Shown: one piece after another, positions 154 to 39,358 of the stretch | Numbering within the stretch: position 1 is the stretch's first letter | Layout: the number at the start of each line of letters is the position of its first letter | NCBI RefSeq assembly: GCF_030812675.1 | Contig: NZ_JAUSTE010000011.1 | Span: 62,001 to 126,000, forward strand | Length of the DNA: 64,000 nt | Reading direction: 5' to 3' | Origin: Sinomonas atrocyanea | Lineage (GTDB): Bacteria; Actinomycetota; Actinomycetes; Actinomycetales; Micrococcaceae | The notes under the pieces: generated by a model | Told to the model about the DNA's origin: nothing | The model's database searches: none | Seen by the model: only the letters and a program-made list of their open reading frames with translations | Position numbers and translations under genes: made by a program

Positions 154-1929
154 TCAGGCCCGGGTATGCTCGGCGGGCACCGCGCCGTCGTCCTCGTAGC
201 GCTCGGCCCGGGCCAGCTCGCGGCCGGCGACGTACCCGAAGGTCAGCGCCGGCCCGAGGTTGATCCCTCCGGCCGGGTAGAAGCCGCCCATGATGCTGGC
301 CTGGTCGTTTCCCGCCACGTACAGCCCCTCGACAGCGGAGCCGTCCGCCCGGAGCACCCGCGCCCGCCCGTCTGCCGCGAGACCGGCGAAGGTCCCGAAC
401 GAGCCGGGCACCACCTTGACCGCGTAGAACGGGCCCTGCTCGATCGGCGCGAGCGAGGGGTTCGGCCCGACCTTGGGGTCGCCGCCGTACCGGTTGAACT
501 CGGTCTCGCCGCGCTCGAACTCAGGGTCTGCCCCGCGCCGGGCGCCCTCGTTGAACCGCTCGACCGTCTCGCGCAGCCCGGCGGGGTCGATGCCGCACGC
601 CGCGGCGAGCTCCTCGAGCGTCCGCCCGCGCTTGAGGTAGCCGGAGCGCAGGTACGGGAACAGGGGCACGGGAAGCGGCTTGGCCATGCCGAGCGGGTAC
701 CTGCGCACGAACCGCGAGTCGGCGATCTGCCACGACTCGACCGCTTCGCCCTCGGGCGTCGCGGCGACGAGCGCGGAGACGTAGTCGTAGTAGCCGTTGG
801 CCTCGTTGACGAACCGCTTCCCGTCCCGGCGCACGCCGATCGATCCGGGCTTGGCGCGGTCCATGATGTGCGGGAAGGTCCCGACCCGGCCGCTGCGGTA
901 CGGGACGAGCGAGACGGGGCACCACGCCGCGGGCGACTCGACGTCGGTGACGAACTGCGCCCCGACCGACTCGCCGAGCGTGATCCCGTCGCCGTCGGCC
1001 TCCTTCGGCGCGAGCGTCCAGTGCTCGCGCCCGGTGGGCGTCTTGGGGAACAGCGCGGCGCGCCGCTGCACATCGTTCGGGAATCCGCCGGCCGCGAGCA
1101 CGACGCCGCGCGCGGCCTCGATCTCGTAGCGTCCTTCCGGTCCGCTCACCACGGCGCCGGTGACGCGCCCCGAGTCGTCGGTGGTGAGCCTGACGGCGGG
1201 GGTCGAGACCCGTACGTCGACGCCGAGGTCCTCCGCGCTCTGCAGGAGCCGCCCCACGAGCGCGATCCCGTTCACCAGGTGCATGCCCCTGCGGTGCACC
1301 GCGAGGTCGAGGATGTGCCGCCCCACCCGCCAGGCCGCGTACGCGAGGCCCTGCAGCGAGCCCTGGGACGCCGAGAGGAACCTGGTCAGGTCCGGGCCGG
1401 CCATGATGCCCATGCCGAGGAACGAGGTCTCGTAGAGCTGACCGCGCAGGAGCCTCCGCACACGGGGCGAGAGGCGGCGGGCGCTGATCGGCGCCGGGCC
1501 GACGGAGCGGTGTCCCGTCCCCGCGCCGGGGGTCTTGCCGTAGATGTCCCTGATCTTCGCGCCGGGGGTGAACTGCAGCCGCGTCCTGTCCTCGAAGAAG
1601 CCGACCATGTGAGGCACGGCCTCGAGGAACGCGTCGATGCGGGCGGCGTCGTACCGGTCTCCGAGCCGGTGGCGGAGGTAGGTGCGGAACTGCTCGGGAT
1701 CCTCGTCCACGCCGTCGGCCTTCGCGAGCGGGTTGCCGGGGGTCCACGCCCAGCCGCCGGACCATGCCGTGGCGCCGCCGCAGACCTCGGCCTTCTCGAC
1801 CACCACGACGCGCAGTCCGTGGTAGGCGGCCGTCACGGCCGCGGACAGGCCGCCGGCGCCGGAGCCGATGACGAGGACGTCGGTCTGGACGGCGGGGGCG
1901 GCAGAGGATGTCGGGGCGGGGGCGGTCAT
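154..1929 (-). CDS. FAD-dependent oxidoreductase, KstD / fumarate-reductase flavoprotein type
   Basis: This 591-residue flavoprotein belongs to the family that includes 3-ketosteroid delta-1-dehydrogenase and fumarate-reductase flavoproteins, which dehydrogenate or reduce C-C bonds next to a carbonyl or carboxylate. The dinucleotide-binding motif GSGAGG is at residues 22-27 after a short disordered N-terminus. The C-terminal FAD-closing block with YPAGGINLGP is near residues 550-560. No signal peptide is seen, so it is probably cytoplasmic. It is the last gene of a seven-gene minus-strand operon and its ATG overlaps the stop of the upstream TIM-barrel gene (ATGA). The longer open frame upstream is the shadow of the next gene, so the ATG at 1929 is chosen. 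In this context a dehydrogenase that desaturates or aromatises a six-membered ring ketone is plausible; the substrate is inferred, not shown. Confidence 0.88.
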   Translation of the reverse strand: MTAPAPTSSAAPAVQTDVLVIGSGAGGLSAAVTAAYHGLRVVVVEKAEVCGGATAWSGGWAWTPGNPLAKADGVDEDPEQFRTYLRHRLGDRYDAARIDAFLEAVPHMVGFFEDRTRLQFTPGAKIRDIYGKTPGAGTGHRSVGPAPISARRLSPRVRRLLRGQLYETSFLGMGIMAGPDLTRFLSASQGSLQGLAYAAWRVGRHILDLAVHRRGMHLVNGIALVGRLLQSAEDLGVDVRVSTPAVRLTTDDSGRVTGAVVSGPEGRYEIEAARGVVLAAGGFPNDVQRRAALFPKTPTGREHWTLAPKEADGDGITLGESVGAQFVTDVESPAAWCPVSLVPYRSGRVGTFPHIMDRAKPGSIGVRRDGKRFVNEANGYYDYVSALVAATPEGEAVESWQIADSRFVRRYPLGMAKPLPVPLFPYLRSGYLKRGRTLEELAAACGIDPAGLRETVERFNEGARRGADPEFERGETEFNRYGGDPKVGPNPSLAPIEQGPFYAVKVVPGSFGTFAGLAADGRARVLRADGSAVEGLYVAGNDQASIMGGFYPAGGINLGPALTFGYVAGRELARAERYEDDGAVPAEHTRA

Positions 1930-2834
1930 GCGGAGGCTCCGTTCGGTGCGGTGCGGGTGGGGTGGGCAGGCCCGGTGGCCCGTGCTCGGACGAGCGCCTC
2001 GGCGTCCGCGAGCACGCGGTCGGCGCCCTGCTTCAGGCGCCGCGCCCAGCCGAGCGCGCCGAGGCGCTCGACGTCTCGCGGTGACGGCGTCTCGACGCTC
2101 ACCGGCAGCGCCGGGGCCAGGGCGGCGACGATCTCGGCGAGCGCGAGGCCTCCCTCGCCCGGGACCAGGCGGGCGGCGCGGGACTCGTGGACGAGGCCCT
2201 CGCGGTCGCCGGGGCGCTGGGCGGGGGCGTCGCAGAGCTGGAGCATCGGGACGAGGTCGGCGATGGCCGCGAGCTCCCCGAGCGTGCCGCCGAAGCGGCG
2301 GAAGTGCAGGGTGTCGACGACGACCTGGGCGCCGGCGGCCCGGGCGGCCGTCGCGGCGGCGGGCAGCGAGCTGATGCGCTGGTAGGAGATGGGCTCGAGC
2401 GTGGGGGTGATGCCGAATTCCCGTCCGTCCTCGGCCATCCGGGCGAGGTTCTCGGCGAACCGGGCAGGCTCGGGATCGGCTCCCGCCACGGTCATAGTCC
2501 GGGCGCCGAGGGCGTGCCCGGCCTCGAACATGCGCAGCCAGGCGTCGCGCTGGCCATGGGCCCCGCTTGTTCCGTCCATGAGGAGGAATTCGATGTCCAC
2601 CAGGCGGACGCCGGTGGCGCGGGCGTTGGCGAGCGTCTGGGCGAGCATCGGCGAGCCGGGCTGCAGGTCGTACGGCCGCTCGGCCGAGGTCACGGGACGG
2701 ACGCGGGCGCCGATGAAGTCGAACCCCGCCTCGGCGGCGACGAGGACGAGGTCGGGCGGGGCGGTCCCGAGGAGGGAGAGCTGGGCGAGGCCCACGGGGC
2801 GCCGCGGCGCGGAGGCGGTCTGGGCGGCGGTCAT
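1926..2834 (-). CDS. Xylose-isomerase-like TIM barrel protein (3-dehydroshikimate dehydratase-like?)
   Basis: This 302-residue protein is of the sugar phosphate isomerase/epimerase TIM-barrel fold. The expected metal ligands are visible: E147 in LEPISYQ, D174 and H177 in VVDTLHF, Q199 in LQLCDAP and E248 in VSVETPS. This E/D-H/Q/E set is the divalent-metal site of IolE, hydroxypyruvate isomerase and AsbF/QuiC-type 3-dehydroshikimate dehydratases. It lacks the C-terminal dioxygenase-like half found in the gene at 39359. It overlaps both neighbours by four bases (ATGA). A shikimate-dehydrogenase homologue in the same operon makes dehydration of a dehydroshikimate-like compound a reasonable guess, but isomerase or epimerase activity on another cyclic polyol is equally open. 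Confidence 0.82.
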   Translation of the reverse strand: MTAAQTASAPRRPVGLAQLSLLGTAPPDLVLVAAEAGFDFIGARVRPVTSAERPYDLQPGSPMLAQTLANARATGVRLVDIEFLLMDGTSGAHGQRDAWLRMFEAGHALGARTMTVAGADPEPARFAENLARMAEDGREFGITPTLEPISYQRISSLPAAATAARAAGAQVVVDTLHFRRFGGTLGELAAIADLVPMLQLCDAPAQRPGDREGLVHESRAARLVPGEGGLALAEIVAALAPALPVSVETPSPRDVERLGALGWARRLKQGADRVLADAEALVRARATGPAHPTRTAPNGASA

Positions 2835-4960
2835 GCAGATGCTCCTTCGAGGATCGGGGCGGAGGGGGTGGGCGATGCGGCGGGTGCGAGGGCGGCGGCG
2901 AGGCGCTGGGCGGCGTCGTACCCGCTCTTGATCGCATTCGACGCCGTGGGCGGGGTCTGGTCGACCACAGTCCCGGCAAGCACCACCGGAACGCCCGCGC
3001 CGAGCCCGAGCGCGGCCTCGCGGCCCTCCCGGTCCACGGCCGCGCTGAGGGGCACCACGCCGCGGGAGACCAGGAGGGGTCCGGGCGCCCCGAGCCACCG
3101 CTCGCCGTCGGCCCCGACGACGCGGACGCGGCCTTCCGGCGTGCCGGGCGCAACCGCCTCGATGATGCGCGCGTCGAGCACGATCCGCACGTGCGGACTG
3201 GCCTCGAGCCGCGGGACGGCGAGGATCTTGGCGCGGCGCCCGGATTCCGGGGCGATGGCCTGCTCGGGCCCGATGAGCAGCACGCGCGTGCCGTGGGCCG
3301 CGAGGGTGTCCGCCACAGACAGGGCCACCGAGTCGGCGCCCCAGATCGTCACCGCGGCGGGCCAGGCGCCCTCTTCGGCGCGGCGGTCGCCGTCGAGGAG
3401 GCCCGGGCGGGCGGCGAGCCAGTCGCGGACGTCGAGCACGCCGTCGGGCGCCTCGGCGCGACTGCCGGTGACCGGAAAGCCGGGTGCGGGGCGGGCCCCG
3501 CCGGTGGCGAGGACGATCCCGTCGGCGCCGAGCGTCTGCGCGAGGCCTGCGAGGTCCCGGACGTCCGCGGCGGCGCCGAGGCGCACCTCGACCCCGAGGC
3601 GCGCGAGCTCGGCGCGGTTCCAGTCGAGGTAGCGGTGGAAGTCGGGAGTTGGGCGCATCCCGGCGGCGAGCGCGAACTGGCCGCCGATCCGCTCCCCCGC
3701 CTCGAGCAACGTGACGCGCGCACCGGCCTCGGCGAGCTCGCGCGCGGCGGTCAGGCCCGCGGGCCCGGCGCCGAGGACCACGGTGCGAGGCGGGGCGGGG
3801 CGCACGACGGCGCCCGGCCGCCCCGCGTCGTCGGCCGCCACGAGGCGCGGGGCCGCCACGGGAACCCGCGAGCGCCCGACCGCTGGATTGACGGTGCACG
3901 TCACCTGGCCAAGGCCGAGGTTGTCGATGCAGACGTTGCAGGCGATGCACGGCCGGTACGGCGAGCCGTCCAGGACGCCCCGGACGAAGGCCGGGTCGGC
4001 GTGCACCGCACGGCCGAGGGAGACGAAGTCGCACACGCCGTCGGCGAGCACCGCCTCGATGGCCTCGGGCGAGTTGAGCCGCCCCGCGAGGCCGAGGGGC
4101 AGGCCGAAGCGCCGGTAGGCGCGGGCGTAGTCGGCGAGGATGCCGGGCCTCCACTCCCCCGGCTGCACGATCCACTCGCCGGCCTCGTAGGAGCCGGCGG
4201 AGAGGTCCAGGAAGTCCAGCGCCGCCAGGTCGAGCCGCGAGACGACCTCGAGGGTCTGCTCGGCGCCGAGTCCGTCCGGGACGCCCTCGAGCACGGAGAG
4301 GCGGATCCCGACGAGTGCCTCGGGCGCGGCCGCCCGGACAGCCCGGATCACGAGGTTGGCGAACCGCTCCGGGGCGCCGAACTCGTCGGAGCGGCCGTTG
4401 GTGCGGGCGGACATGAACTGGTGGACGAGGTAGCCGTGGCCGCCGTGGATGCTGATGGCGTCGAACCCGGCCGCGACGGCCCGGCGGGCCGCCTGGGCGT
4501 AGGCGTCCACGAGCTCGTGGCACTCGCGCGTGCTGAGCGCCCGGGGCAGCTCGCCGCCTGCGACCTCGCACGCAACCGCGGCGGGCGCGACGGGCGGGAG
4601 CCCGCTCACCGCGGACTGCGCGGTGCATCCGCCATGGTTGATCTCGACGGCGGCGAGCGCACCCGCTGCGTGGATGGCGTCGGTGAGCTCCCGGAATCCC
4701 GGGAGGACGGCGTCGGTGTGCAGGCCGAGCTGGTGGGTGCGGCCCTTGCCGTCGGCGCGCACGTACGTGGCCTCGGTGGTGACGATGGCGAGGCCTGCCC
4801 GGGCGCGGGCCACGAGGTAGTCCGTGTACTGGGCGGTCATGCGACCGTCGGTGGTGCCGTAGTTGCGCTCCATCGGGGAGCTCACGAGCCGGTTGCGGAG
4901 GGTGCGCGCCGGGCGGCCGTTGCGGCCCAGGACGAGCGGCTGGGAGGCATGGTGGGTCAT
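2831..4960 (-). CDS. Old Yellow Enzyme / 4Fe-4S / FAD fusion (2,4-dienoyl-CoA reductase-like)
   Basis: This 709-residue protein has the layout of 2,4-dienoyl-CoA reductase, trimethylamine dehydrogenase and the bile-acid enzymes BaiCD/BaiH. An FMN-binding OYE TIM barrel covers residues 1 to about 330 and carries the HGGHGYLVHQF active-site block. A cysteine cluster CIACNVC with a further Cys near residue 352 binds a 4Fe-4S cluster. A FAD/NAD(P) domain starts with GAGPAGL near residue 397 and a second nucleotide-binding segment (WGADSVAL) follows. Such enzymes reduce or oxidise C-C double bonds conjugated to carbonyls or CoA thioesters. Stop and start overlap neighbouring genes by four bases on both sides. 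Together with the KstD-like protein it gives the operon two opposing ring-redox enzymes. The substrate is unknown. Confidence 0.9.
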   Translation of the reverse strand: MTHHASQPLVLGRNGRPARTLRNRLVSSPMERNYGTTDGRMTAQYTDYLVARARAGLAIVTTEATYVRADGKGRTHQLGLHTDAVLPGFRELTDAIHAAGALAAVEINHGGCTAQSAVSGLPPVAPAAVACEVAGGELPRALSTRECHELVDAYAQAARRAVAAGFDAISIHGGHGYLVHQFMSARTNGRSDEFGAPERFANLVIRAVRAAAPEALVGIRLSVLEGVPDGLGAEQTLEVVSRLDLAALDFLDLSAGSYEAGEWIVQPGEWRPGILADYARAYRRFGLPLGLAGRLNSPEAIEAVLADGVCDFVSLGRAVHADPAFVRGVLDGSPYRPCIACNVCIDNLGLGQVTCTVNPAVGRSRVPVAAPRLVAADDAGRPGAVVRPAPPRTVVLGAGPAGLTAARELAEAGARVTLLEAGERIGGQFALAAGMRPTPDFHRYLDWNRAELARLGVEVRLGAAADVRDLAGLAQTLGADGIVLATGGARPAPGFPVTGSRAEAPDGVLDVRDWLAARPGLLDGDRRAEEGAWPAAVTIWGADSVALSVADTLAAHGTRVLLIGPEQAIAPESGRRAKILAVPRLEASPHVRIVLDARIIEAVAPGTPEGRVRVVGADGERWLGAPGPLLVSRGVVPLSAAVDREGREAALGLGAGVPVVLAGTVVDQTPPTASNAIKSGYDAAQRLAAALAPAASPTPSAPILEGASA

Positions 4961-6042
4961 GAGGCACCTTCTGGGGCGGCGGCGGGCTGGGCCAGGCGGA
5001 CCGGACGCCCGGTGCGGGAGGACTCGTAGACGGCGAGGAGGATCGTCAGGGCCGCGGTGGCGTCGCGACCCGTGACGGCGGGCGCGCGGCCGGCGCCGAG
5101 GGCCTCGACGAAGTCGCGGATCTGGGTGGTGTGGTGCGGGACGAGCTGGCCGTTGATCGTGGCCAGGTCCACGTCCGGGTCGATGCCGGCGGGGTGAGCG
5201 GGCTGGGACTCAATGGTGCGGCCGCGGGCGAGGATGGTCACCCGGCCGTCGGTGCCCTCGGGGAACTCCGTGAGCTCGGCGGTCGCGCCGGTCTCGCCCG
5301 TGATGCGGATGCTGACCCCGAGGCTCGGGGCGGCGGCAGTCGTCGCGGAGAGCGTGGCCATCGCCCCGGAGGCGAAGCGGAGCAGGGCGGCGGCGGTGTC
5401 CTCGACCTCGATCGCGTGCGTGAAGGTGCCGAGGCAGCCGTGCACCTCGACGACCTCGCCCATGAGCCACTGCAGGAGGTCGAGGTAGTGGATGGCCTGG
5501 GTCATGAGCACGCCGCCGCCGTCGGTGGCCCACGTCCCCCGCCAGGCGGCCGCGCTGTAGTACTCCGGCTCCCGGTGCAGCAGCACCGAGGCGTGGCCGA
5601 GGATCGGCCGCCCGAGCGTGCCGTCGTCCACCGCGGCGCGGAGGCGCTGCGCGGCCGGCCAGAAGCGGCGCTGGAACAGGACTCCCAGACGCACGCCGGC
5701 GGCGTCGCACGCGGCGACCATCCGCTCGGCGGAGGCGAGGTCGATCGCGATCGGCTTCTCGCAGAGGACGTGCGCCCCCGCCGCCGCGGCGGCGAGGACC
5801 ACGGCCTCATGGGTGGGGTGCGGGGTGCACACCGAGACGAGGTCGACGCCGGCGGCCAGCAGCTCCCCGACCGAGCCGAACGCGTGGGGGATCCCCCAGC
5901 GCTCGGCGGTCTCGCGGGCGCGGCCCGGGTCGACGTCGCACACGGCCACCACCGCGGCCTCGGGGATCGCGGCGAACGCCTCGAGGTGGTTGCGGCTGAT
6001 GGCTCCGCAGCCCACGATCCCGACGCGGTAGGGCGCGCTCAT
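4957..6042 (-). CDS. Gfo/Idh/MocA family oxidoreductase
   Basis: This 361-residue NAD(P)-dependent dehydrogenase belongs to the glucose-fructose oxidoreductase / inositol dehydrogenase family. The Rossmann motif GCGAIS is at residues 11-16, the conserved EKP triad at 95-97, and the D174-x10-H185-x2-D188 segment carries the usual catalytic His/Asp. Family members oxidise hydroxyls of sugars, inositols and cyclic diols, including aromatic dihydrodiols. The frame is open far upstream, but that region is the shadow of the aroE-like and SDR genes. The ATG at 6042 overlaps the upstream stop (ATGA) and is chosen. In this operon it probably oxidises a ring hydroxyl of the imported compound. Confidence 0.88.
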   Translation of the reverse strand: MSAPYRVGIVGCGAISRNHLEAFAAIPEAAVVAVCDVDPGRARETAERWGIPHAFGSVGELLAAGVDLVSVCTPHPTHEAVVLAAAAAGAHVLCEKPIAIDLASAERMVAACDAAGVRLGVLFQRRFWPAAQRLRAAVDDGTLGRPILGHASVLLHREPEYYSAAAWRGTWATDGGGVLMTQAIHYLDLLQWLMGEVVEVHGCLGTFTHAIEVEDTAAALLRFASGAMATLSATTAAAPSLGVSIRITGETGATAELTEFPEGTDGRVTILARGRTIESQPAHPAGIDPDVDLATINGQLVPHHTTQIRDFVEALGAGRAPAVTGRDATAALTILLAVYESSRTGRPVRLAQPAAAPEGAS

Positions 6043-6980
6043 GACACCTCCGTTCCGGCCCGCGCGGCCAGCTCGAGGAAGTGGGCGCGCATGCGGGCAC
6101 GGTCTGCGCGGCGGCCGGTGAAGAGCTCGAACGAGTCGGCGGCCTGCGCCACGGCCATCCAGCCGCCGTCGAGCACGCGGCACCCGGCGGCCAGGGCGGC
6201 CTTCACGAGCTGGGTCTCGAGGGGGCGGTAGACGACGTCGGCCACCCAGTGCCGCGGCGTGAGCGCGGAGGCGTCGAAGGGGGTGCCCGGGTGCCCGACC
6301 ATGCCGATCGGCGTCGCGTTGACCACGCCGTCGGCCCCCGCGAGGCGGGTGGGCACCTCGTCGAGGACGACGGCGGCGACCCGCCCCGCGCCGTCGGCCG
6401 CGGCTGGGTTCCCGGCGCGGTGCCCGGCGAGGCGGGCAGCGAGCTGCTCGGCGCGGGCGGGCTCGGCGTCCGCCACGAGCAGGGTCCCGGCGCCGGCGTC
6501 GAGGAGGGCGCGGGCCACGGCCGAGCCGGCCCCGCCCGCGCCGACGAGCAGCACCGTGCCGAGGGCCGCCCCGGGCAGGCCCTCCAGGAGCGCTGCGCGG
6601 AAGCCCGTGTGGTCGGTGTTGCGGCCGGTGAGCCGCGCGGCGGCGCCGGATCCGCCGCGGCGCGGGCCGCGATCGTGCGTGTCGATGACCACCGTGTTGA
6701 CCGCCCCCAGCTCCCGCGCGTCGTCGGAGAGCCCGTCGAGGCCGGCGATGACCGACTGCTTGCACGGGTGCGTCACGTTCAGGCCCGTGTAGCCGAGCCG
6801 GGCGGCGTCCCGCGCGAGCTGCCCGGCGTCGTCGGGCGCGAGGCCGAGCGCGTCGAGGTCCAGCGTGCGGTAGGCGTAGCGGAGGCCGTGGGCGGCGGCC
6901 TCGCGCTCGTGCAGGAGCGGGCTGAGCGAGCCGGCGACGTTGGCGCCGATGAGTCCGATGAGGTGGCTGGGGGCGGTCAT
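6039..6980 (-). CDS. Shikimate/quinate dehydrogenase family protein (AroE-like paralogue 1)
   Basis: This 313-residue homologue of shikimate/quinate 5-dehydrogenase has the substrate-binding serines S18 and S20 (GSLSP) and catalytic K74 in NVTHPCKQ. Catalytic D123 lies in GRNTDHTGF and the nucleotide motif GAGGAG is at 147-152. These are the hallmark residues of AroE and QsuD, so activity on a quinate- or shikimate-like polyol is likely. The close resemblance to the QsuD-like gene at 41338, including HWVADVVYRP and the C-terminal LFTGRRADRARMRAHF block, shows the two are paralogues. A catabolic rather than biosynthetic role is inferred from the importer and oxidoreductases around it. A 21-base gap separates it from the SDR gene upstream. 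Confidence 0.88.
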   Translation of the reverse strand: MTAPSHLIGLIGANVAGSLSPLLHEREAAAHGLRYAYRTLDLDALGLAPDDAGQLARDAARLGYTGLNVTHPCKQSVIAGLDGLSDDARELGAVNTVVIDTHDRGPRRGGSGAAARLTGRNTDHTGFRAALLEGLPGAALGTVLLVGAGGAGSAVARALLDAGAGTLLVADAEPARAEQLAARLAGHRAGNPAAADGAGRVAAVVLDEVPTRLAGADGVVNATPIGMVGHPGTPFDASALTPRHWVADVVYRPLETQLVKAALAAGCRVLDGGWMAVAQAADSFELFTGRRADRARMRAHFLELAARAGTEVS

Positions 6981-7001
6981 GGTGGTCCTTGTCGGTGGGG
7001 G

Positions 7002-7739
7002 TCAGTAGGTGGCGCGGCCGCCGGAGAGGTCGTACACGAACCCGGTGGTGTAGGAGGCGCCCCGGGAGGCGATGTACTCGACGAGCGCCGCGGCCTCCTC
7101 GGCCGTGCCGAGCCGGCCCATCGGGATCCGGGCGAGGTCCGCGTCCGTCACCGCGAGGTCCCGGATGAGGGGCGTGGCGACCTTGCCGGGCGCCACCGCG
7201 TTCACGGTGACGCCCGAGGCCGCGCACTCCTTGGCCAGGGCCTTGGTGAGGCCCATGAGCCCGGCCTTGCTCGCGGAGTAGGCGGCCATTCCCGCCACGC
7301 CCTCCTTGCCGGCGGTCGAGGCGAAGTGGATGAGCCGGCCCGAGCCGCTGCGCGCCAGGTGCGGCAGGACGGCCCGGGAGACGAGGAACGCCCCCGTGAG
7401 GTTGACCCGCAGCATCCGCTCGAAGGACTCGACGGTCTCCTCGGCCGCCGGACGGACCTCGCCGACGATCCCTGCGGTGTTGACGACGACGTCGAGCCGC
7501 CCGCCGGTCTCGGCGAGGGCCTTGGCGACGCCCGCCTCGACGGACGCCTGATCGGAGACGTCGAGGTCCACGTGGGCCACGCCGGCGTCGGCGCCGTGCC
7601 GCGGGGCACCGGGCAGGTCGGCGGCGACCAGGGCCGCCGCGGCAGGGGCGAGGCGCTCGACCACCGCGCGGCCGATGCCCGACGCGGCCCCGATCACGAG
7701 GCACCGGCGCCCCGCAGGGACTGGCCCACTGCGCGCCAT
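7002..7739 (-). CDS. SDR family NAD(P)-dependent oxidoreductase
   Basis: This 245-residue classical short-chain dehydrogenase has the cofactor motif GAASGIG at 17-23, NTAG at 87-90, N113, and the catalytic S141, Y154 and K158 in AAYSASK. Length and motifs match the FabG-like classical SDR group. It oxidises or reduces a secondary alcohol/ketone pair; the substrate is unknown. The start ATG shares one base with the stop codon of the transporter gene (TGATG), which implies translational coupling. It is the second gene of the seven-gene operon. Confidence 0.9.
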   Translation of the reverse strand: MARSGPVPAGRRCLVIGAASGIGRAVVERLAPAAAALVAADLPGAPRHGADAGVAHVDLDVSDQASVEAGVAKALAETGGRLDVVVNTAGIVGEVRPAAEETVESFERMLRVNLTGAFLVSRAVLPHLARSGSGRLIHFASTAGKEGVAGMAAYSASKAGLMGLTKALAKECAASGVTVNAVAPGKVATPLIRDLAVTDADLARIPMGRLGTAEEAAALVEYIASRGASYTTGFVYDLSGGRATY

Positions 7740-9112
7740 CAGTTCCCCGCCGTTCCAGGGGCCGGGACGGCGAGCGCCTGGGCCGGGTCCGCGCGGCGGG
7801 AGCGGCGGCCGAGCTCGTCCTTGGGCACCCGGTACGTCTCGCGGGCCGAGAGCACGGCCAGGGCGGAGACGAGGCAGAAGGCCACCGTCATCCAGCCCAC
7901 GGGGCCCCAGTTGGCGGAGTTGCCCGCGGTGATCGCGGCGCCGATGGCCGGGGTGAAGCCGGCCACGACGAGGCCGAGCATGAGGCTCACTGCCATGCCG
8001 GAGTAGCGCGTCCTGGCCGGGAACAGCTCGGGGAAGTAGGCGGGGTAGACGCCGTTGGGCATGGCGTAGAAGATGCCCGTGAGGCCGATCCCGGCGGCGA
8101 AGATCAGCGGCCAGCTCCGGGTCGAGAGGGCTCCGAAGAACACGAAGACCATGACGGCGCTGCCCAGGGCGCCGACGATGAAGACCGGCTTGCGGCCGAT
8201 CTTGTCTGCCAGGAGTGCGAAGAGCGGCTGCGTGAAGACCGTGACGGCATTGGCCACAGCGATGACCACCAGCATGGTCGGCTTGTCCAGCTTCACCACC
8301 GCGGTCGCGTAGGTCAGCGCGAAGACGGTGAAGACGGTGCCGACCATCGTCACGAGGGCGGCGAGGGTCACGCGGACCACGTTGGGGAAGTCGTTGCGGA
8401 ACAGGTCCACGAGCGGGACCGCGGCAGTCTGGGCGTCCTCCTTGATCTCGGCGAACAGCTCGGGCTCCTCGAGCCGGCGGCGCAGGTAGAAGGCGACGAA
8501 CGTGACCACTGCGCTGAGCAGGAACGGGATGCGCCAGCCCCAGGACATGAGGACCGGCTGCGGGAGCATGGTGACCGGGATGAACACGATGCTCGAGACC
8601 ACGATGCCGAACTGGATCCCGCTCATGGTGAAGCTCGTGAAGAAGGCCCGGCGGCCCTCCGGCGCGTGCTCGAGCGTCAGGGAGCTCGAGCCCGGCGACT
8701 CTCCGCCGGCGGAGAGCCCCTGGATGAAGCGCAGCGCGATGAGCGCGGCCGGGGCGAGGCCCCCGACGGCGCTGTAGGTGGGGAGGCAGCCGATGAGGAA
8801 CGTCGAGGCGCCCATGAGCACGAGGGTCAGCAGCAGGACGTTCTTCCGCCCCATCCGGTCGCCGAAGTGGCCCCAGATGACGGCGCCGAGCGGGCGGGCG
8901 ACGTAGGCGACCCCGAGGGTGGCGAACGAGAGCAGCGTCCCGGCCGCGCCGGCGTCGGGGAAGAACAGCTTGCCGAAGAACAGGGCCGCGGCGGAGCCGA
9001 AGATGAAGAAGTCGTAGTACTCGAGCGTGCTGCCCAGGAAACCGGACAGGGCCGCAATCCGCGCGTTCTGGGTGCGCGGCGTGCGGGAGTCGGTGGATGT
9101 CGACGCTGACAT
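7739..9112 (-). CDS. MHS-family MFS transporter (shikimate/aromatic-acid importer type), copy 1
   Basis: This 457-residue MFS protein of the metabolite:H+ symporter (MHS) subfamily is related to ShiA, ProP, KgtP and PcaT. The N-terminal STLEYYDFFIFGSAAALFF block and the loop motif GHFGDRMGRKN are diagnostic, and about twelve hydrophobic segments follow. It is the first gene of the minus-strand operon, so it most likely imports the compound that the six downstream enzymes degrade. MHS members typically carry carboxylates, quinate/shikimate, betaines or aromatic acids. It starts at ATG 9112, downstream of a promoter region containing a 17-bp palindrome. Three further MHS genes lie in this window (36972, 45249, 48802). 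Confidence 0.92.
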   Translation of the reverse strand: MSASTSTDSRTPRTQNARIAALSGFLGSTLEYYDFFIFGSAAALFFGKLFFPDAGAAGTLLSFATLGVAYVARPLGAVIWGHFGDRMGRKNVLLLTLVLMGASTFLIGCLPTYSAVGGLAPAALIALRFIQGLSAGGESPGSSSLTLEHAPEGRRAFFTSFTMSGIQFGIVVSSIVFIPVTMLPQPVLMSWGWRIPFLLSAVVTFVAFYLRRRLEEPELFAEIKEDAQTAAVPLVDLFRNDFPNVVRVTLAALVTMVGTVFTVFALTYATAVVKLDKPTMLVVIAVANAVTVFTQPLFALLADKIGRKPVFIVGALGSAVMVFVFFGALSTRSWPLIFAAGIGLTGIFYAMPNGVYPAYFPELFPARTRYSGMAVSLMLGLVVAGFTPAIGAAITAGNSANWGPVGWMTVAFCLVSALAVLSARETYRVPKDELGRRSRRADPAQALAVPAPGTAGN

Positions 9113-9200
9113 GGATGCTCCCTTCGGGTGATGCCGCCCACGGGAGGTGGCGGCTCATCCAGCATGGGGGCGCCCATTGTGGCGCGTCCAACACTTAGTT

Positions 9201-9230
9201 GATCTAGGACTATGTGCGTATCACGCACAA
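9201..9230 (-). promoter_or_regulatory. Putative promoter and operator of the seven-gene operon
   Basis: On the minus strand a -35-like TTGTGC (9230-9225) is followed after 18 bases by a -10-like TAGATC (9206-9201). The -35 end overlaps a perfect inverted repeat TGTGCGT-ATC-ACGCACA at 9213-9229, a good candidate operator. The binding protein is not identified; the LysR gene at 10170 is the nearest regulator but lgt lies between them. Confidence 0.45.
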
Positions 9231-9240
9231 TTCTGGAGGG

Positions 9241-10122
9241 TCACTCCACGGCGGGGGCCGCGGCCTCCTCGGGCCGGGCCTGCGAGCGCGGGCGCCGGAA
9301 CGTGAGCAGGAACGCGATCACGGCCGCCACGAACAGCAGGCCGGAGACCCAGGTGTTGACCCGGAGCCCGAGGATGAGGTTCGCGTAGTCCGAGCGCATG
9401 AGCTCGAAGACGAACCGCCCGGCCGTGTAGACGGCAATGTAGAGGGCGAGCACGCTCCCGGCGCCGAGCCGGACCTTCCGGTCGAGCCAGATGATCGCTG
9501 CCGCGGTCGCGAGGCACCAGATCGACTCGTAGAGGAAGGTGGGCTGGAAGTAGCCGAGCACGACGGGGTTGCCGGCGGCATCCGTGACCGCACGGCCCGT
9601 GGAGAGGTCCATCTGGTGGATCTGCAGCCCCCAGGGAAGGTCGGTCGGGTCGCCGTAGAGCTCGTTGTTGAACCAGTTGCCCCACCGTCCGATCCCCTGG
9701 GCAGCGAGCACCCCGGGCGCCACGGCGTCCGCGAACGCCAGGAAGGAGGCGCCCGCGCGTCGGCACCCGATCCACACGCCCACGGCGCCGAGCGCCACAG
9801 CGCCCCAGATGCCGAGCCCGCCGTCCCAGATCGCGAACGCGTTCCAGGGGTTCCTGCCCGGCAGGAAGTACAGCTCGGGGTCGGTGATGACGTGGTAGAT
9901 GCGCCCGCCCACGATCCCGAACGGAATGGCCCACAGGCTGATGTCGATCGCCTCTCCGGCCCGCCCGCCCCGCTGCCGCCACCGGCGTGCCGTGATCCAC
10001 ACGGCGACGGCGATGCCGAGCATGATGCACAGGGCATAGAAGTGGATGGTCAGCGGCCCAAGGGGGAAGCCGCTCACTGTGGGGGAAGGGAAATAGGCCG
10101 GAACCGACGCGTTCACGCTCAC
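9241..10122 (-). CDS. lgt: Prolipoprotein diacylglyceryl transferase
   Basis: Lgt transfers the diacylglyceryl group from phosphatidylglycerol to the lipobox cysteine of prolipoproteins at the membrane. This 293-residue copy shows the family signature GRWGNWFNNELYGDPT (residues 145-160) with the essential Arg146 and Asn149. It also has the WDGGLG block at 99-104 and, near residues 246-254, the Y-x3-R-x3-E triad (YTAGRFVFE) that matches catalytic Y235/R239/E243 of the E. coli enzyme. Several membrane segments are evident. The start is GTG at 10122. In Arthrobacter relatives lgt normally follows trpA. Here it stands between a catabolic operon and a LysR gene, so it may be a second copy. Confidence 0.95.
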   Translation of the reverse strand: MSVNASVPAYFPSPTVSGFPLGPLTIHFYALCIMLGIAVAVWITARRWRQRGGRAGEAIDISLWAIPFGIVGGRIYHVITDPELYFLPGRNPWNAFAIWDGGLGIWGAVALGAVGVWIGCRRAGASFLAFADAVAPGVLAAQGIGRWGNWFNNELYGDPTDLPWGLQIHQMDLSTGRAVTDAAGNPVVLGYFQPTFLYESIWCLATAAAIIWLDRKVRLGAGSVLALYIAVYTAGRFVFELMRSDYANLILGLRVNTWVSGLLFVAAVIAFLLTFRRPRSQARPEEAAAPAVE

Positions 10123-10169
10123 TGCCGGATCCTACCAATTCCAGGTGGCCGGGAACCGGGCGCCGCGGG

Positions 10170-11063
10170 TCAGGCCGGGGTGGGCAGCACCTGCTCGGCA
10201 ACCTCGAGCACGTGCGGCAGCACGCGCGAGGGGTTGGCGGGCGCCCACGCGAGCCCGTGCTGGAGGTAGGGCTGCGGGCCGGAGAGCGGGATGTACACGG
10301 CCCCGTGCGGCAGGATGTCGCTCATGCCCTCGCTCACGAGGCTCACGCCCATCCCGGCGGCGACGAACGTGAGGATCATGAACGGGTCGCCGATCGTCTG
10401 CACCACGCGCGGCCGGAACCCCGCCGCGACGCAGGCGGCCGTGGCCGTGCGCTCGAGGTCCGACCCGCCGCCGGAGGGCATCATGACGAAGTCCTCGCCG
10501 CGCAGCTCTGCGAGGTCGAGCGAGGGCCGGTGGGCGAGGGCGTGGTCCACAGGGACGACGGCGCCGAGCGCCTCCCGCGCGATCAGGCGGGAGGCGAGCG
10601 GGGACGGGTCGAGCGGGAGTCCCACGAAGGCCAGGTCGAGCGTTCCCTGCATGAGCTGCGCGACGGCGTCGCCCGTCACCACGCGGCCCTGCAGCGAGAG
10701 GACCACGTCCGGGTAGCGGCGGCGCAGCGCCCGGGTGAGCCGCGGGAGGGTGCGGTGGTTGATGGCGCCGGTGAAGCTCATGGTCAGGTGCCCGTAGACG
10801 GTCCCCACGGAGGCGTGGGCGGCCTGCCGGGCGACCTCGAGCTCGTCCAGGGCGCGGTAGGCGTGCGGCAGCAGGGAGCGGCCGGCGGGGGTGAGGGCCA
10901 CGCTGCGCGTGCTGCGGTCGAACAGCGGCACGCCCATGTCCTTCTCGAGCTTGCGGATGGTCTGGCTCAGCGGCGACTGGGCCATGTGCAGCCGCGTGGC
11001 TGCGCGCCCGAAGTGCAGCTCCTCGGCCACGGCGACGAACGCCTCGAGCCACCTGATCTCCAC
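10170..11063 (-). CDS. LysR-family transcriptional regulator
   Basis: This 297-residue LysR regulator has its winged helix-turn-helix at about residues 18-37 (FGRAATRLHMAQSPLSQTIR), followed by a periplasmic-binding-like effector domain. The GTG at 11063 gives the canonical LysR N-terminus MEIRWLEAFVAVAEEL. The longer open frame is antisense to the MFS gene and is ignored. It is divergent from the MFS gene at 11136 with 72 bases between, the classic LysR arrangement, so it probably controls that transporter and itself. Confidence 0.9.
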   Translation of the reverse strand: MEIRWLEAFVAVAEELHFGRAATRLHMAQSPLSQTIRKLEKDMGVPLFDRSTRSVALTPAGRSLLPHAYRALDELEVARQAAHASVGTVYGHLTMSFTGAINHRTLPRLTRALRRRYPDVVLSLQGRVVTGDAVAQLMQGTLDLAFVGLPLDPSPLASRLIAREALGAVVPVDHALAHRPSLDLAELRGEDFVMMPSGGGSDLERTATAACVAAGFRPRVVQTIGDPFMILTFVAAGMGVSLVSEGMSDILPHGAVYIPLSGPQPYLQHGLAWAPANPSRVLPHVLEVAEQVLPTPA

Positions 11064-11123
11064 GGGCCCATTCAAGCACCTGCCCAGCCGCTCCCGGCTC
11101 CCCGCCCCCGCCGGGCGGCTGAG

Positions 11124-11138
11124 TAGGGTGGACGGGTG
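11124..11138 (+). promoter_or_regulatory. -10 box TAGGGT placed for a leaderless mRNA
   Basis: TAGGGT at 11124-11129 ends six bases before the GTG start at 11136, the distance at which transcription would begin on the start codon itself. No Shine-Dalgarno sequence precedes the GTG. Leaderless mRNAs are common in actinobacteria; no clear -35 box is visible. Confidence 0.4.
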
Positions 11139-12314
11139 ACCGCGGCGAAGGACTCCCCCACAGCACTGCCCACCGAGGGGATCCCGGACCGGGTGCTGAT
11201 GTCCATCGGCTTCCTGTCCTTCTTCGACCGGTTCGCCACTCCCCCGATGCTCGTGGTCCTCGCGGCCCGGACCGGCATGTCCCTCGCGGAGGCGGTGGGA
11301 CTGGTGGCCGCCTACTCGCTCCTGTACGCCCTCGGGCAGCCCGTGTGGGGGTTCATCAGCGACCGGTTCGGCCGGGTGGCGGTGCTCCGCACGGCCCTGG
11401 CCGGCCTGGCCGTGGCGGCGGTGGCCAGCACGCTGTTCAGCGCGCACGTCCCGCTGCTCGTTGCCCGCTCGGCCGCCGGGCTCATGGCCGGGTGCCTGTA
11501 CCCGACACTCCTGACCATCATCGGCGACACGCGCACCGGCGTCGCGAAGGCCCGCGGCCTCTCCGAGCTGCAGGTCTACTCGGCCCTCGGCACCACCGGG
11601 GCCACCCTCGCCGCCGGCACCATCGCGGCGTACACGGATTGGCGGGTGGTGTTCGGGCTGCCCGCCCTCGGCTGCCTCGCCCTCCTGATCCTCCTCCGCC
11701 GCGCGCACGACGGCGGCACGCACCGCCGCGGTCCCGTCGACTTCCGCGCGGCGTTCTCGGGCGCGGCCCTCGGCGTGTACGGGGTGGCCGTGCTCGAGGG
11801 CGCGGTGCTCATGGGCGTGCTGACCTACTTCGTGCCGGCACTGCAGCACGCGGACGTGCCCATCGCCCTCGCGGGAGTGCTCGCCGCCGGCTACGGCGTC
11901 GGGGTGATTGCGGGCGCCCGGCTCATGCGCCGGCTCGTGCAGCGCCTCTCGCGCACGCGGCTCATGGGCCTGGGCGGGGCGGTGCTGCTGGTGGGCTATG
12001 CGGCGTCGTCGGTCGTGCAGAATCCGGCGGCGATCACCGCCACCGCGGTCCTCGTCGGGGCCTCGAACGCGATCCTGCACTCCTCGGTGCAGGGCTGGGC
12101 CACCGAGGTCGCGCCGGCGGCCAGGGCCACCGCGGTGGCCCTGTTCGCCTGTGCGCTGTTCCTCGGCAGCTCGGTGGGGACCTTCCTCACGGCGCCGCTC
12201 GCCGGGGCCGGCCAGTACGGGGCGATCTTCCTGCTCGGGCTCGGCGCCACGGCGGTGCTCATCGCGGTGGTGACGGCCGGGCACTCGGCGTGGCAGCGGC
12301 GTCGGGCGCGGTAG
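11136..12314 (+). CDS. MFS transporter (DHA1-like, 12 TM)
   Basis: This 392-residue MFS permease has about twelve hydrophobic segments and the cytoplasmic loop motif GFISDRFGRVAVLR after TM2. The overall form resembles DHA1-type drug or metabolite efflux carriers. It is divergent from the LysR gene at 10170-11063 and is probably its target. The GTG start at 11136 lacks a ribosome binding site but sits just after a -10 box. The gene ends in a hairpin that overlaps its stop codon. The substrate cannot be told from sequence. Confidence 0.88.
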   Translation: MTAAKDSPTALPTEGIPDRVLMSIGFLSFFDRFATPPMLVVLAARTGMSLAEAVGLVAAYSLLYALGQPVWGFISDRFGRVAVLRTALAGLAVAAVASTLFSAHVPLLVARSAAGLMAGCLYPTLLTIIGDTRTGVAKARGLSELQVYSALGTTGATLAAGTIAAYTDWRVVFGLPALGCLALLILLRRAHDGGTHRRGPVDFRAAFSGAALGVYGVAVLEGAVLMGVLTYFVPALQHADVPIALAGVLAAGYGVGVIAGARLMRRLVQRLSRTRLMGLGGAVLLVGYAASSVVQNPAAITATAVLVGASNAILHSSVQGWATEVAPAARATAVALFACALFLGSSVGTFLTAPLAGAGQYGAIFLLGLGATAVLIAVVTAGHSAWQRRRAR

Positions 12315-12335
12315 GGGCGGCCAGGAGATCGCCCC
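12314..12335. terminator. Short hairpin between convergent genes
   Basis: A 6-bp inverted repeat (GGGGCG 12314-12319, CGCCCC 12330-12335) with a ten-base loop fills the 23-base gap between the convergent MFS and monooxygenase genes. It may stop transcription from both sides. The stem is short and the call is weak. Confidence 0.35.
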
Positions 12336-12337
12336 GG

Positions 12338-12643
12338 TCAGAACATGTCCGGTGAGTCGACCCGCTCCCCGACGGTGATCTGCGGGGCCACGGTGAGGTC
12401 GGCGCCGACCGTGCCCATGAAGTCCCGCAGCGCCGGATCGCTGAAGAAGCTCTCGAACTCCTGCGCGGATTCCCACTCGTCGTTGATGAGGATGTAGCCC
12501 TCTCCCACACCGAACTGGTGGTGGAGGGCGCCGTGCTCCTTGGCACTCGCGGCAATCTTCCGGTACTCCTCAGCATGGTCCTCGAGGGACTTCGTGAAGA
12601 CGCCTGTGTCCCCGGAAACCTTGACCGCGACGATGACAGACAT
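12338..12643 (-). CDS. Antibiotic biosynthesis monooxygenase (ABM) domain protein
   Basis: This 101-residue alpha/beta-barrel protein of the dimeric ABM family (quinol monooxygenase YgiN-like) has the typical pattern: an initial VIVAVKV strand, an acidic helix, a HHQFGVGEGYILINDEW hairpin and a final helix with FF. Members either oxidise quinols without cofactor or act as small ligand-binding proteins. It stands alone and convergent to the MFS gene. A good ribosome binding site (GGAGG) lies ahead of ATG 12643. No catalytic role is established. Confidence 0.82.
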   Translation of the reverse strand: MSVIVAVKVSGDTGVFTKSLEDHAEEYRKIAASAKEHGALHHQFGVGEGYILINDEWESAQEFESFFSDPALRDFMGTVGADLTVAPQITVGERVDSPDMF

Positions 12644-12828
12644 GGCGATTGACCTCCTGCTAAGTGAGACCGCTGCTCATGGTAGGAAGCGGTGCCGCGG
12701 CCCGCAAGGGTGCAGGGCGGCCTTCCCGCGGGCGCCCGGCGGGCCTACCCTGAAACCGTCCACAGAGACCGTCCCCGCTGGGAAGCTGGAGGCTCGTCTG
12801 GGGCGGCTTCGAGTCCAAGGAGCACGCC

Positions 12829-13215
12829 ATGAGCACCAACGCGTCCATCAACACCGTCACGAGCCTGAACGTGAAGTCCCACGACGACCCCGACGAGAAG
12901 CGCCGGCCCGACAAGTCCGAGATCGACCTCGTGACCGTGGGGGACTACACGATCGGGCGCCTCACGTTCGCCCCCGGCTGGCGCTGGTCGGACTGCATCA
13001 AGCCGGTCGCGGGTACCGACACCTGCCAGAACAACCACGTGGGCTATTGCGTTTCCGGCACCCTCGAGGTCCGCCTCGCCACGGGTGAAAGCGCAACGAT
13101 CACGGCCGGCAGCTCGTACACGATCCCGCCGGGCCACGACGCCTGGGTCGTGGGCGAGGAGAAGTTCGTGGGGCTGGAGTTCCTCAGCGCCGCGGTCTTC
13201 GCGAAGCCGGAGTGA
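12829..13215 (+). CDS. Cupin-domain protein
   Basis: This small 128-residue protein has a single cupin barrel. The motif-1 region (NNHVGYCVSGTLEVRLATGE) and motif-2 region (IPPGHDAWVVGEEKFVGLEF) are recognisable, though the metal-binding His/Glu set is incomplete: one His in motif 1 and one in motif 2. It begins a plus-strand series cupin, OYE, FAD-linked oxidase. It may be an enzyme accessory or small-molecule sensor; the function is unknown. Confidence 0.85.
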   Translation: MSTNASINTVTSLNVKSHDDPDEKRRPDKSEIDLVTVGDYTIGRLTFAPGWRWSDCIKPVAGTDTCQNNHVGYCVSGTLEVRLATGESATITAGSSYTIPPGHDAWVVGEEKFVGLEFLSAAVFAKPE

Positions 13216-13234
13216 GCCACGCCGTGGGCGCCAT

Positions 13235-13264
13235 TTGACGGCGGGGGCACCGCGCGGAAGCCTT
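13235..13264 (+). promoter_or_regulatory. Possible promoter for the OYE gene
   Basis: A consensus-like -35 TTGACG (13235-13240) lies 18 bases before a weak -10 AGCCTT (13259-13264), which ends six bases before ATG 13271. This suggests the OYE gene has its own, possibly leaderless, start. Confidence 0.3.
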
Positions 13265-13270
13265 GGCACC

Positions 13271-14359
13271 ATGCGTGCCGAGAAGCTCTTCACCCCCGTC
13301 GACATCCGGGGCGTCCATGTCAGGAACCGCCTGTGGGCCTCGCCCATGTGCCAGTACTCGGTCGAGGAATGGGACGGGGTGCCCACCGACTGGCACCTCG
13401 CCCACCTCGGCTCCCTCTCCCGCGGCGGCGCCGGCCTCGTGATGACCGAGGCCAGCGCCGTCAACCCCGAGGGGCGCATCACCAACTGGGACACGGGCAT
13501 CTGGAACGATGCCCAGGCGGACGCGTGGCGCCGGATCGTCGGCTTCGTCCACTCCCAGGGGGCCACCGCCGCGATGCAGCTCGCCCACGCGGGCCGCAAG
13601 GCCTCGACCTTCCGCGAGTGGAGCGGCAGGGGCAGCCAGCCGATCGAGGACGGCGGCTGGGAGACCGTGGCGCCGTCCGCGGTCGCCTTCGACGGCTACG
13701 CGACGCCGCGCGAGCTGAGCGTGGAGGAGATCGCGGGCATCGTCGCGGACTTCGCCGCCGCGGCCCGCCGGGCGCTGGACGCCGGCTTCGACGTGCTCGA
13801 GATCCACGGCGCCCATGGCTACCTCGTGCACCAGTTCCTGTCCCCGCTCTCCAACCTGCGCACCGACGAGTACGGCGGCAGCCTCGAGAACCGGGCCCGC
13901 ATCCTGCTCGAGATCGTCCGGGCCGTTCGGGCAGAGGCGGGCGACGCCGTCCCCCTCCTCGTGCGCCTCTCGGCGACCGACTGGGTGGACGGCGGCTGGA
14001 ACCTCGAGGACACCATCACGGTGGCCGGATGGGCGGCCGAGGAGGGCGCCGACTGGTTCGACCTGTCCTCCGGCGGCCTCGTGGCCCGGGCCAGCATCCC
14101 GGTCAAGCCCATGTACCAGGTGGGGTTCGCCACGGCCGTCCGCCAGGGCACCGGGATGCCGGTCAACGCCGTCGGCCTCATCACCACCCCGCAGGAGGCC
14201 GCGCAGATCGTGGGCAACGACGAGGCCGACGCCGTCATGGTGGCGCGCGAGTTCCTCCGCGATCCCCACTTCGGGCTCCGGGCCGCGCACGAGCTCGGAG
14301 TCGAGCTCGACTACTGGCCGCCGCAGTACACCCGCGCGAAGTGGCGCACCGAGGCCTGA
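13271..14359 (+). CDS. NADH:flavin oxidoreductase, YqjM-like Old Yellow Enzyme
   Basis: This 362-residue FMN ene-reductase of the YqjM subclass has the redox-tuning C27 and Y30 (SPMCQYS), flavin-contacting Q103, and the substrate-binding H179/H182 with Y184 (IHGAHGYL). The subclass-typical LSPLSNLRTDEYGGSLENR segment follows. Such enzymes reduce alpha,beta-unsaturated carbonyls using NAD(P)H. Unlike the protein at 2831 it has no FeS or FAD domain. It lies 26 bases before the FAD-linked oxidase gene, suggesting co-transcription. Its physiological substrate is unknown. Confidence 0.93.
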   Translation: MRAEKLFTPVDIRGVHVRNRLWASPMCQYSVEEWDGVPTDWHLAHLGSLSRGGAGLVMTEASAVNPEGRITNWDTGIWNDAQADAWRRIVGFVHSQGATAAMQLAHAGRKASTFREWSGRGSQPIEDGGWETVAPSAVAFDGYATPRELSVEEIAGIVADFAAAARRALDAGFDVLEIHGAHGYLVHQFLSPLSNLRTDEYGGSLENRARILLEIVRAVRAEAGDAVPLLVRLSATDWVDGGWNLEDTITVAGWAAEEGADWFDLSSGGLVARASIPVKPMYQVGFATAVRQGTGMPVNAVGLITTPQEAAQIVGNDEADAVMVAREFLRDPHFGLRAAHELGVELDYWPPQYTRAKWRTEA

Positions 14360-14385
14360 CCCCGGAACCCGACCGGAGGACCTCC

Positions 14386-26374: not shown

Positions 26375-26524
26375 GTGGGAATCAGGGCATGGCTTGACCG
26401 GCGCCGTCGTGGCGTCGCCGCGGCGGCGAGCATCACGACGGCGAGCGCGGTCACCGCCGCGGCCCTCCTGTACCCGGGCTTCACCCAGACGAACCTCGAC
26501 CTCTCGGACGGCGGGTGTGGGTGA
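26375..26524 (+). pseudogene. N-terminal signal-anchor fragment, frameshifted from 26515-32475
   Basis: GTG 26375, preceded by AGGGGGG at good spacing, opens a 49-codon frame. It encodes a basic cluster (DRRRRG), a hydrophobic Ala-rich segment and then PGFTQTNLDLSDGG, ending at TGA 26522. Homologues of this family, as I recall them, read this same start continuing directly as ...DGG-VWVTN. In the DNA that continuation is in the +1 frame at 26515. Adding one base near 26513-26515 (GGCGGGTG read as GGCGGCGTG) would restore one frame. It is therefore the detached N-terminus of the next gene, by mutation, sequencing error or, less likely, programmed frameshifting. Confidence 0.6.
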
Positions 26525-38348: not shown

Positions 38349-38403
38349 GGACGAATGACTCCTTTGTCATCGGGAACTGGGAGCAGCGGAGCGCTGCTGA
38401 ACC

Positions 38404-38432
38404 GATATTATATTATAATATCCTCGAGTCAA
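38404..38432. promoter_or_regulatory. 19-bp AT palindrome over divergent -10 boxes, candidate GntR operator
   Basis: 38404-38422 is a perfect palindrome GATATTATA-T-TATAATATC, strikingly AT-rich for this genome. It contains TATAAT on both strands (38414-38419 plus; 38412-38407 minus). On the minus strand a -35 TTGACT (38432-38427) precedes it with 14-16 bases spacing. Binding of a GntR dimer here would block the importer operon and gntR together. Confidence 0.7.
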
Positions 38433-38518
38433 GGGCTCGGCCGGGTGCGTTATCGTCGGACCGTCAGCTCGGCATGGGCGTGGCTTGGCCGCTGGCCCAG
38501 AGTGGAAGGTGGAGGCAT

Positions 38519-39211: not shown

Positions 39212-39237
39212 TCCTCAGAAGCGCGGCACAGCCGTTC

Positions 39238-39263
39238 CCCCTGCCTCGGGGGGCGGGCAGGGG
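39238..39263 (+). terminator. Hairpin after the GntR gene
   Basis: CCCCTGCC (39238-39245) and GGCAGGGG (39256-39263) form an 8-bp stem with a ten-base loop 27 bases past the gntR stop. Confidence 0.45.
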
Positions 39264-39328
39264 CCGCCGGCCACGGTCCGGCGTGTGCCTCCTGACGGCG
39301 CCGCTCAGGTCAGCCGGTCGGGGCAGCC

Positions 39329-39349: not shown

Positions 39350-39358
39350 AGCCCCCGC

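Follow-up and report, generated by a model that had tools for sequence, protein, structure and literature searches.

This analysis concerns a seven-gene operon in a 64,000-nucleotide stretch of the Sinomonas atrocyanea genome (contig NZ_JAUSTE010000011.1, positions 62,001 to 126,000), referred to below as the window. The operon occupies the minus strand from 9112 to 154. Its first gene encodes an MHS/MFS importer of the shikimate-transporter type (7739–9112, 457 amino acids (aa); Pfam MFS_1, 130 bits), which stays below the equivalog cut-off of the NCBIfam shikimate transporter model (301 of 538 bits). It is followed by a short-chain dehydrogenase/reductase (SDR; 7002–7739, 245 aa; Pfam adh_short_C2) and an AroE/QsuD-type hydroaromatic-acid dehydrogenase (6039–6980, 313 aa), which scores 347 bits against the PRK12549 subfamily cut-off of 235 and has QsuD 3jyo as its best PDB match (5e-66). 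Next come a Gfo/Idh/MocA dehydrogenase (4957–6042, 361 aa; Pfam PF01408/PF22725/PF02894) and an old yellow enzyme (OYE) flavoprotein of the 2,4-dienoyl-CoA reductase/BaiCD type, combining flavin mononucleotide, [4Fe-4S] and flavin adenine dinucleotide (FAD) parts (2831–4960, 709 aa; PF00724 and PF07992; best PDB match 1ps9). The last two genes encode a xylose-isomerase-like metal TIM barrel (1926–2834, 302 aa; PF01261) and a KstD-like FAD flavoprotein (154–1929, 591 aa).

Checking the reading frames in the window confirmed the seven co-directional genes and their boundaries. Four junctions overlap by ATGA (6039–6042, 4957–4960, 2831–2834 and 1926–1929), the importer stop and the SDR start share the A of a TGATG at 7739, and a 21-base gap separates the SDR end at 7002 from the AroE start at 6980. 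Pfam and NCBIfam results agreed with the families that a first-pass annotation had named from the sequence, and its account of the operon, its junctions and its gap was likewise borne out.

The operon is real, conserved and modular. The first-pass annotation had called for a search for the same gene order, which was found in two further genomes of the genus, G162 (locus L021, where the OYE match falls into two overlapping pieces) and G104 (L022). Since the exact order recurs in other genomes of the genus, the arrangement is not due to chance. Of 295 genomes sampled from the family, 47 have the TIM barrel protein (E ≤ 1e-20); in a phylum-wide sample of 396, it occurs in 9 (E ≤ 1e-50), of which two belong to the window's own family and six to one other family. 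A scan of named genomes for this protein yielded 73 loci, in which the presence of each gene was scored by tblastn (a match of 90 bits or more at any position of the locus). Gfo was present in 58 loci, KstD in 60, AroE in 36 and OYE in 35; Gfo was also found in 19 of 20 family loci. Gfo, TIM and KstD genes lay within about 10 kb of one another in 56 of the 73 named loci and formed a single same-strand run (gaps below 700 bases) in 52, while the SDR gene stood inside the TIM run in 15.

The commonest runs were MHS-Gfo-OYE-TIM-AKR-KstD (11 loci), MHS-AroE-SDR-Gfo-OYE-TIM-AKR-KstD (8) and MHS-Gfo-OYE-TIM-KstD (8), where AKR denotes an aldo-keto reductase, the identity of the gene inserted between TIM and KstD in all three loci checked by family search. 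A Kocuria locus carries TctA/TctC, of carboxylate type, in the importer role instead of MHS. This survey of runs defines a conserved three-gene core of Gfo, TIM and KstD, to which importer, AroE, SDR, OYE and AKR are added as exchangeable modules; the seven-gene form is that of some Sinomonas. TIM and KstD occurred without a Gfo match of at least 90 bits in four loci (L071, L075, L099 and L111). An AroE of QsuD type is encoded close by in three of these, and the distant L111 has only a weak AroE match (32%), as expected if either Gfo or AroE can make a ketone.

Because AroE and the second, QsuD-like protein of the window compete for one gene in the presence counts, the tallies of all seven genes and of all but SDR/AKR are undercounts; the run counts merge both. 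Several of loci L041–L113 come from genomes that also supplied L021–L040 under another name, so the two sets were not summed. Gene ends in relatives were set with a home-made codon-usage caller. Alignment A1 has 19 rows, with L021 and L026 left out as near-copies. Both were also omitted from A2, together with L040 (interrupted by a stop), L028 (split into two pieces) and L033 (which lacks Gfo), and from A3, together with L027 (likewise interrupted by a stop), L035 and L039.

The KstD-like protein carries the residues of a ketone desaturase. Its Y380, Y551 and G555 align with Tyr318, Tyr487 and Gly491 of KSTD1, the last of which we presume to have a role in that enzyme. KSTD1 removes the C2 hydrogen of its substrate through Tyr318 and binds the 3-keto group by a hydrogen bond with Tyr487 (PMC8220720). 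Among relatives with more than 55% identity, the surrounding motifs were NE[AG].GY in 58 of 58 and YP[AG][AG]G in 53 of 58. The protein passed the cut-off of PRK12839 (NF009476, FAD-dependent oxidoreductase; 1036 against 940 bits), a model whose name specifies no reaction. The top NCBIfam model with a named reaction was ChcC2 (NF053677), at 507 bits against a cut-off of 900, and assignment as ChcC2 was rejected. The two steroid 3-ketosteroid delta1-dehydrogenase models were rejected in the same way (442 of 789 and 421 of 788 bits).

The AlphaFold2 model of the TIM barrel (predicted local distance difference test score, 91) was closest in fold to Lmo2234 (VIA Z 29.8), QuiC (29.4) and IolI (29.0), three structures that neither Foldseek nor VIA separated (Z 29.0–29.8). 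The structural comparison with AsbF and QuiC suggested by the first-pass annotation thus places QuiC among the best folds, tied with Lmo2234 and IolI, and AsbF lower (23.5). Residues E147, D174, H177, Q199 and E248 were invariant in 19 aligned rows, and E147, D174, Q199 and E248 align with QuiC 5hmq, giving the same Glu-Asp-Gln-Glu pattern, which we take to be that of the metal ligands, in the same fold. Lmo2234 has this pattern too, so the pattern does not discriminate. The TIM protein matched no NCBIfam model at E 1e-3, the QuiC model NF042435 included, and, at only 302 aa, it was not among the matches when the genome was searched with QsuB. QsuB-like proteins of the window and its relatives matched NF042435 over its full length with 462–520 bits, under the cut-off of 1200. 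In Arthrobacter sp. H16F315 (L093, 10001–10811) the TIM gene match was split in two, perhaps by a frameshift or an assembly error.

Nine positions of QsuD 3jyo were checked in the AroE protein (S17, T19, T69, K73, N94, D110, D158, Y230 and Q258), presumably important in its active site or in cofactor binding; eight were identical and T19 was replaced by Ser. With Ser or Thr at 19, they were kept in all 22 AroE copies that precede TIM on its strand and so count as upstream of the core (19 inside the TIM run; L080, L081 and L083 outside it). The operon AroE was placed outside the clade of qsu-linked AroE proteins (support 99/97) and scored 246 bits against the QsuD equivalog NF010631, whose cut-off of 515 is also missed by the QsuD-like protein beside the window QsuB (344 bits). 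Gfo matched DgpA structures and the IolG model TIGR04380, the latter at 163 bits against a cut-off of 355, and was rejected as inositol 2-dehydrogenase. The four Fe-S cysteines of the OYE protein were kept in 35 of 35 aligned relatives; the BaiCD and mycofactocin OYE assignments were rejected (239 and 288 bits; cut-offs 825 and 793).

Genes of protocatechuate and quinate metabolism accompany the core in several loci. The window holds a canonical quinate/shikimate set on the minus strand (36972–42243), composed of an MHS importer (36972–38348), a QuiC/QsuB-like dehydroshikimate dehydratase (39359–41338; full-length match to the QuiC model, 520 bits, cut-off 1200) and a QsuD-like protein (41338–42243). 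Outside the window but on the same contig, some 25 kb from the operon, is a pcaH gene adjoined by pcaB- and pcaD-like genes. Corynebacterium uropygiale (L099) has, on a single strand, the order MHS-TIM-KstD-pcaH-pcaG-pcaB-pcaC-pobA-pcaK-like-qsuB-qsuD, with pcaH, pcaG and pcaC above their cut-offs, pcaB just short (345 of 356 bits) and pobA passing a subfamily model; the transporter, QsuB and QsuD are named by best match. A Citricoccus run (L071) reads TIM-KstD-QsuD-QsuB, and in C. glyciniphilum (L090) the core is flanked by pcaIJ/pcaR/thiolase/pcaD and by qsuD/qsuB. In the family sample, QsuB was present in 42 of 44 genomes with TIM versus 119 of 251 without it (odds ratio 23, Fisher's test, p = 3e-10); the 44 are those with E ≤ 1e-55, which excludes three weaker matches of the 47 (G011, G037 and G176), and the tally of 42 was read by eye. 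TIM and QsuB lie 29–75 kb apart in several genomes of the genus (G162, G104, G084, G197 and G226), 288 kb apart in G121 and 1.7 Mb apart in G216.

Several further genes were seen beside these sets. In the window, a GntR regulator gene (38519–39211, plus strand) lies within the quinate set and an IclR gene (42274–43095) next to it, and enoyl-CoA hydratase-like and CaiB-type CoA-transferase-like genes (43193–45252) adjoin it. Another MHS importer (48784–50166), 51% identical to that of the operon, adjoins a LacI-type regulator gene (47749–48747). In L090 (12586–16664), KstD is followed by two genes (490 and 851 aa) with no NCBIfam match at E 1e-20.

The operon is probably catabolic. We infer, with slightly more confidence than doubt and from its predicted enzymes and their neighbours, a funnel in which a hydroxylated cyclohexanecarboxylate lacking the C1 hydroxyl of quinate would be oxidised, dehydrated and desaturated to protocatechuate. 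The best candidate substrate would be 3,4,5-trihydroxycyclohexanecarboxylate (dihydroshikimate) or a stereoisomer of it, which is more reduced than quinate and has no leaving group at C1. Once the MHS protein had imported the acid, its C3 or C5 hydroxyl would be converted to a ketone by Gfo, the proposed catalyst of this first ring oxidation, or by the QsuD-like AroE; SDR and AKR may serve other stereoisomers. The TIM barrel, a putative QuiC-like dehydratase (or keto-isomerase), would remove water beta to the ketone. The KstD-like flavoprotein, as a ketone alpha,beta-desaturase, would abstract two hydrogens adjacent to the ketone, after which tautomerisation of the ring would give protocatechuate for the pca pathway. 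The reverse order, with desaturation before dehydration via 3-dehydroshikimate, is conceivable, and the OYE/Fe-S protein may act as an accessory ene-reductase or desaturase.

The balance C7H12O5 − 2H − H2O − 2H = C7H6O4 (protocatechuate) corresponds exactly to an alcohol oxidation, a dehydration and a desaturation, one of each, all three within the known or conceivable chemistry of the core families. Quinate, with its C1 hydroxyl, is converted to protocatechuate by two dehydrations and needs no desaturase. In a 3,4,5-triol, a hydroxyl is beta to the ketone only if the ketone is at position 3 or 5, position 3 being that of QsuD, and a ketone at position 3 makes C1-C2 reactive towards a KstD-type enzyme. 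The pca/qsu run of C. uropygiale suggests that the flux probably ends in protocatechuate, as judged by gene context. The first-pass annotation had proposed the oxidation of ring hydroxyls followed by desaturation or aromatisation of a cyclohexane acid or a cyclitol. The residues, the neighbours and the carboxylate-type importers (MHS or TctA/TctC) argue for the cyclohexane acid; there was little support for the cyclitol. That annotation mentioned neither the canonical quinate genes of the window nor the Chc operon of the genome, and did not separate the three-gene core from the optional OYE, SDR and AroE. A wider claim, of an undescribed pathway that is common in Micrococcaceae and mineralises dihydroshikimate-type acids to protocatechuate with a TIM barrel of new dehydratase specificity, is tentative and less likely than not.

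Several observations weigh against the funnel. The TIM fold is about equally near to QuiC, Lmo2234 and IolI, and most genomes with TIM also have QsuB, so that context does not fix the TIM reaction. The operon-type AroE copies do not form one clade, and KSTD1 Tyr119, a residue that we also assume to have a role, is replaced, aligning with Ile129. In 13 of the 73 TIM loci, with TIM proteins 30–48% identical, the run contains no other core gene. A QsuB-like gene was found within 10 kb in just six of the 73 loci, four of them Corynebacterium loci of one arrangement; beyond Sinomonas and one further genus, the genes for TIM and QsuB often lie far from each other or on separate contigs, and kinship confounds and inflates their co-occurrence. 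The C. uropygiale run also carries pobA, which makes 4-hydroxybenzoate a possible product.

The same parts could form a second quinate/shikimate operon, in which AroE oxidises quinate or shikimate, TIM serves as a further dehydroshikimate dehydratase and the flavoproteins have accessory redox roles. The QsuD residues of AroE, the shikimate-type importer and the metal-ligand pattern shared with QuiC are consistent with this; yet QsuB- and QsuD-like genes already exist in the window, as QsuB does in nearly all TIM genomes, the KstD gene is found in far more loci than AroE, and quinate requires no desaturase. With AroE outside the qsu-linked clade and TIM unmatched in NCBIfam, we consider this explanation unlikely. 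A plain duplicate of the qsu operon was rejected, because KstD is not needed there and a QsuB-like gene is already present.

A route resembling the Chc pathway could instead end at 4-hydroxybenzoate, with a 4-oxocyclohexenecarboxylate being desaturated and PobA completing the path. ChcC2 is the top named-reaction model of the KstD-like protein, pobA and a PcaK-like importer belong to the C. uropygiale run, and the S. atrocyanea genome has a ChcB/C operon elsewhere: ChcB1, ChcB2, ChcC1 and ChcC2 are clustered on contig C7, each of them above its cut-off. That ChcC2 reaches 1025 bits, however, and would make the operon studied here redundant, while the KstD-like protein stays under the ChcC2 cut-off. 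On chemical grounds, the hydroxyls of a 3,4,5-triol would be alpha, not beta, to a 4-ketone, leaving a TIM dehydratase idle, and we judge this end point improbable. The Chc cluster (L131, contig C7, 38000–57000) has the order ChcB2-ChcB1-ChcC2...ChcC1 (7375–14037), and the gene call for the MHS protein between its two desaturases fell into two parts (10662–11516 and 11601–12041), a possible frameshift or calling error.

Catabolism of a sugar, a cyclitol or a C-glycoside, with Gfo as an inositol or glycoside dehydrogenase and TIM as an IolI/IolE-type isomerase, is very unlikely: the IolG and DgpA matches of Gfo and the near-tied IolI fold point that way, but the IolG cut-off is missed, the importers are of carboxylate types, qsu/pca genes are neighbours in several loci and, from general knowledge, a KstD-type desaturase has no role in such paths. 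Degradation of steroid or terpenoid rings by a true 3-ketosteroid desaturase and a BaiCD-like OYE, as the Tyr/Gly set and the BaiCD score might suggest, is scarcely credible, given the missed KstD and BaiCD cut-offs, the small-acid importer and the absence of steroid genes among the assigned neighbours.

Judged by its protein families, the operon mixes quinate-type and Chc-type logic. It resembles the qsu/qui pathway (QsuA-QsuB-QsuC-QsuD) in its MHS importer, QsuD-type dehydrogenase and QuiC-like TIM barrel and, in several loci, in its neighbours and pca outlet, but lacks QsuB and QsuC and adds Gfo, the OYE-FeS-FAD protein and the KstD-type desaturase. Known quinate routes employ quinate dehydrogenase, dehydroquinate dehydratase and dehydroshikimate dehydratase (PMC4213383; for R. 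jostii, PMC10558750). With the 4-hydroxy/4-oxocyclohexanecarboxylate pathway of ChcB1, ChcB2, ChcC1 and ChcC2 (NF053702, NF053701, NF053676 and NF053677), the operon shares a dehydrogenase and a KstD-like desaturase that aromatises an oxocyclohexanecarboxylate, and an MHS-like gene also occurs in the Chc operon of this genome. It differs in having one KstD-like enzyme, 42% identical to the ChcC2 of the same genome, versus two in Chc (by NCBIfam names), and in adding the TIM barrel and the QsuD-like enzyme. The KstD-like protein belongs to the sequence family of the 3-ketosteroid delta1-dehydrogenases KSTD1 and AcmB and shares their Tyr/Tyr/Gly set, but stays below the steroid cut-offs and stands in a small-acid context. 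The TIM protein is a PF01261 barrel like IolI, Lmo2234 and the QuiC/QsuB domain, with the E-D-(H)-Q-E pattern common to QuiC, but it stands alone, has no HPPD-like domain and is 18% identical to QuiC over the fold alignment. Among the matches listed in the open full-text literature (PMC), there was no description of such an operon.

If the funnel to protocatechuate is correct, alicyclic acids would have a third route into this compound, beside those from quinate and cyclohexanecarboxylate. Lactic acid bacteria reportedly form dihydroshikimate by reducing quinate (Carr et al., 1957), and soil actinobacteria re-aromatising this product would close a food-chain loop. The funnel would also suggest a function for the PRK12839 flavoproteins and for a PF01261 subfamily without an NCBIfam model match, and would offer desaturases for making phenols from ring acids.

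Elsewhere in the window, a plus-strand row at 12829–15762 comprises a 128-aa open reading frame, a second OYE-like gene (13271–14359) and, by eye, a FAD-linked-oxidase-like reading frame (14386–15762). A very long plus-strand open reading frame of 1986 aa spans 26515–32475.

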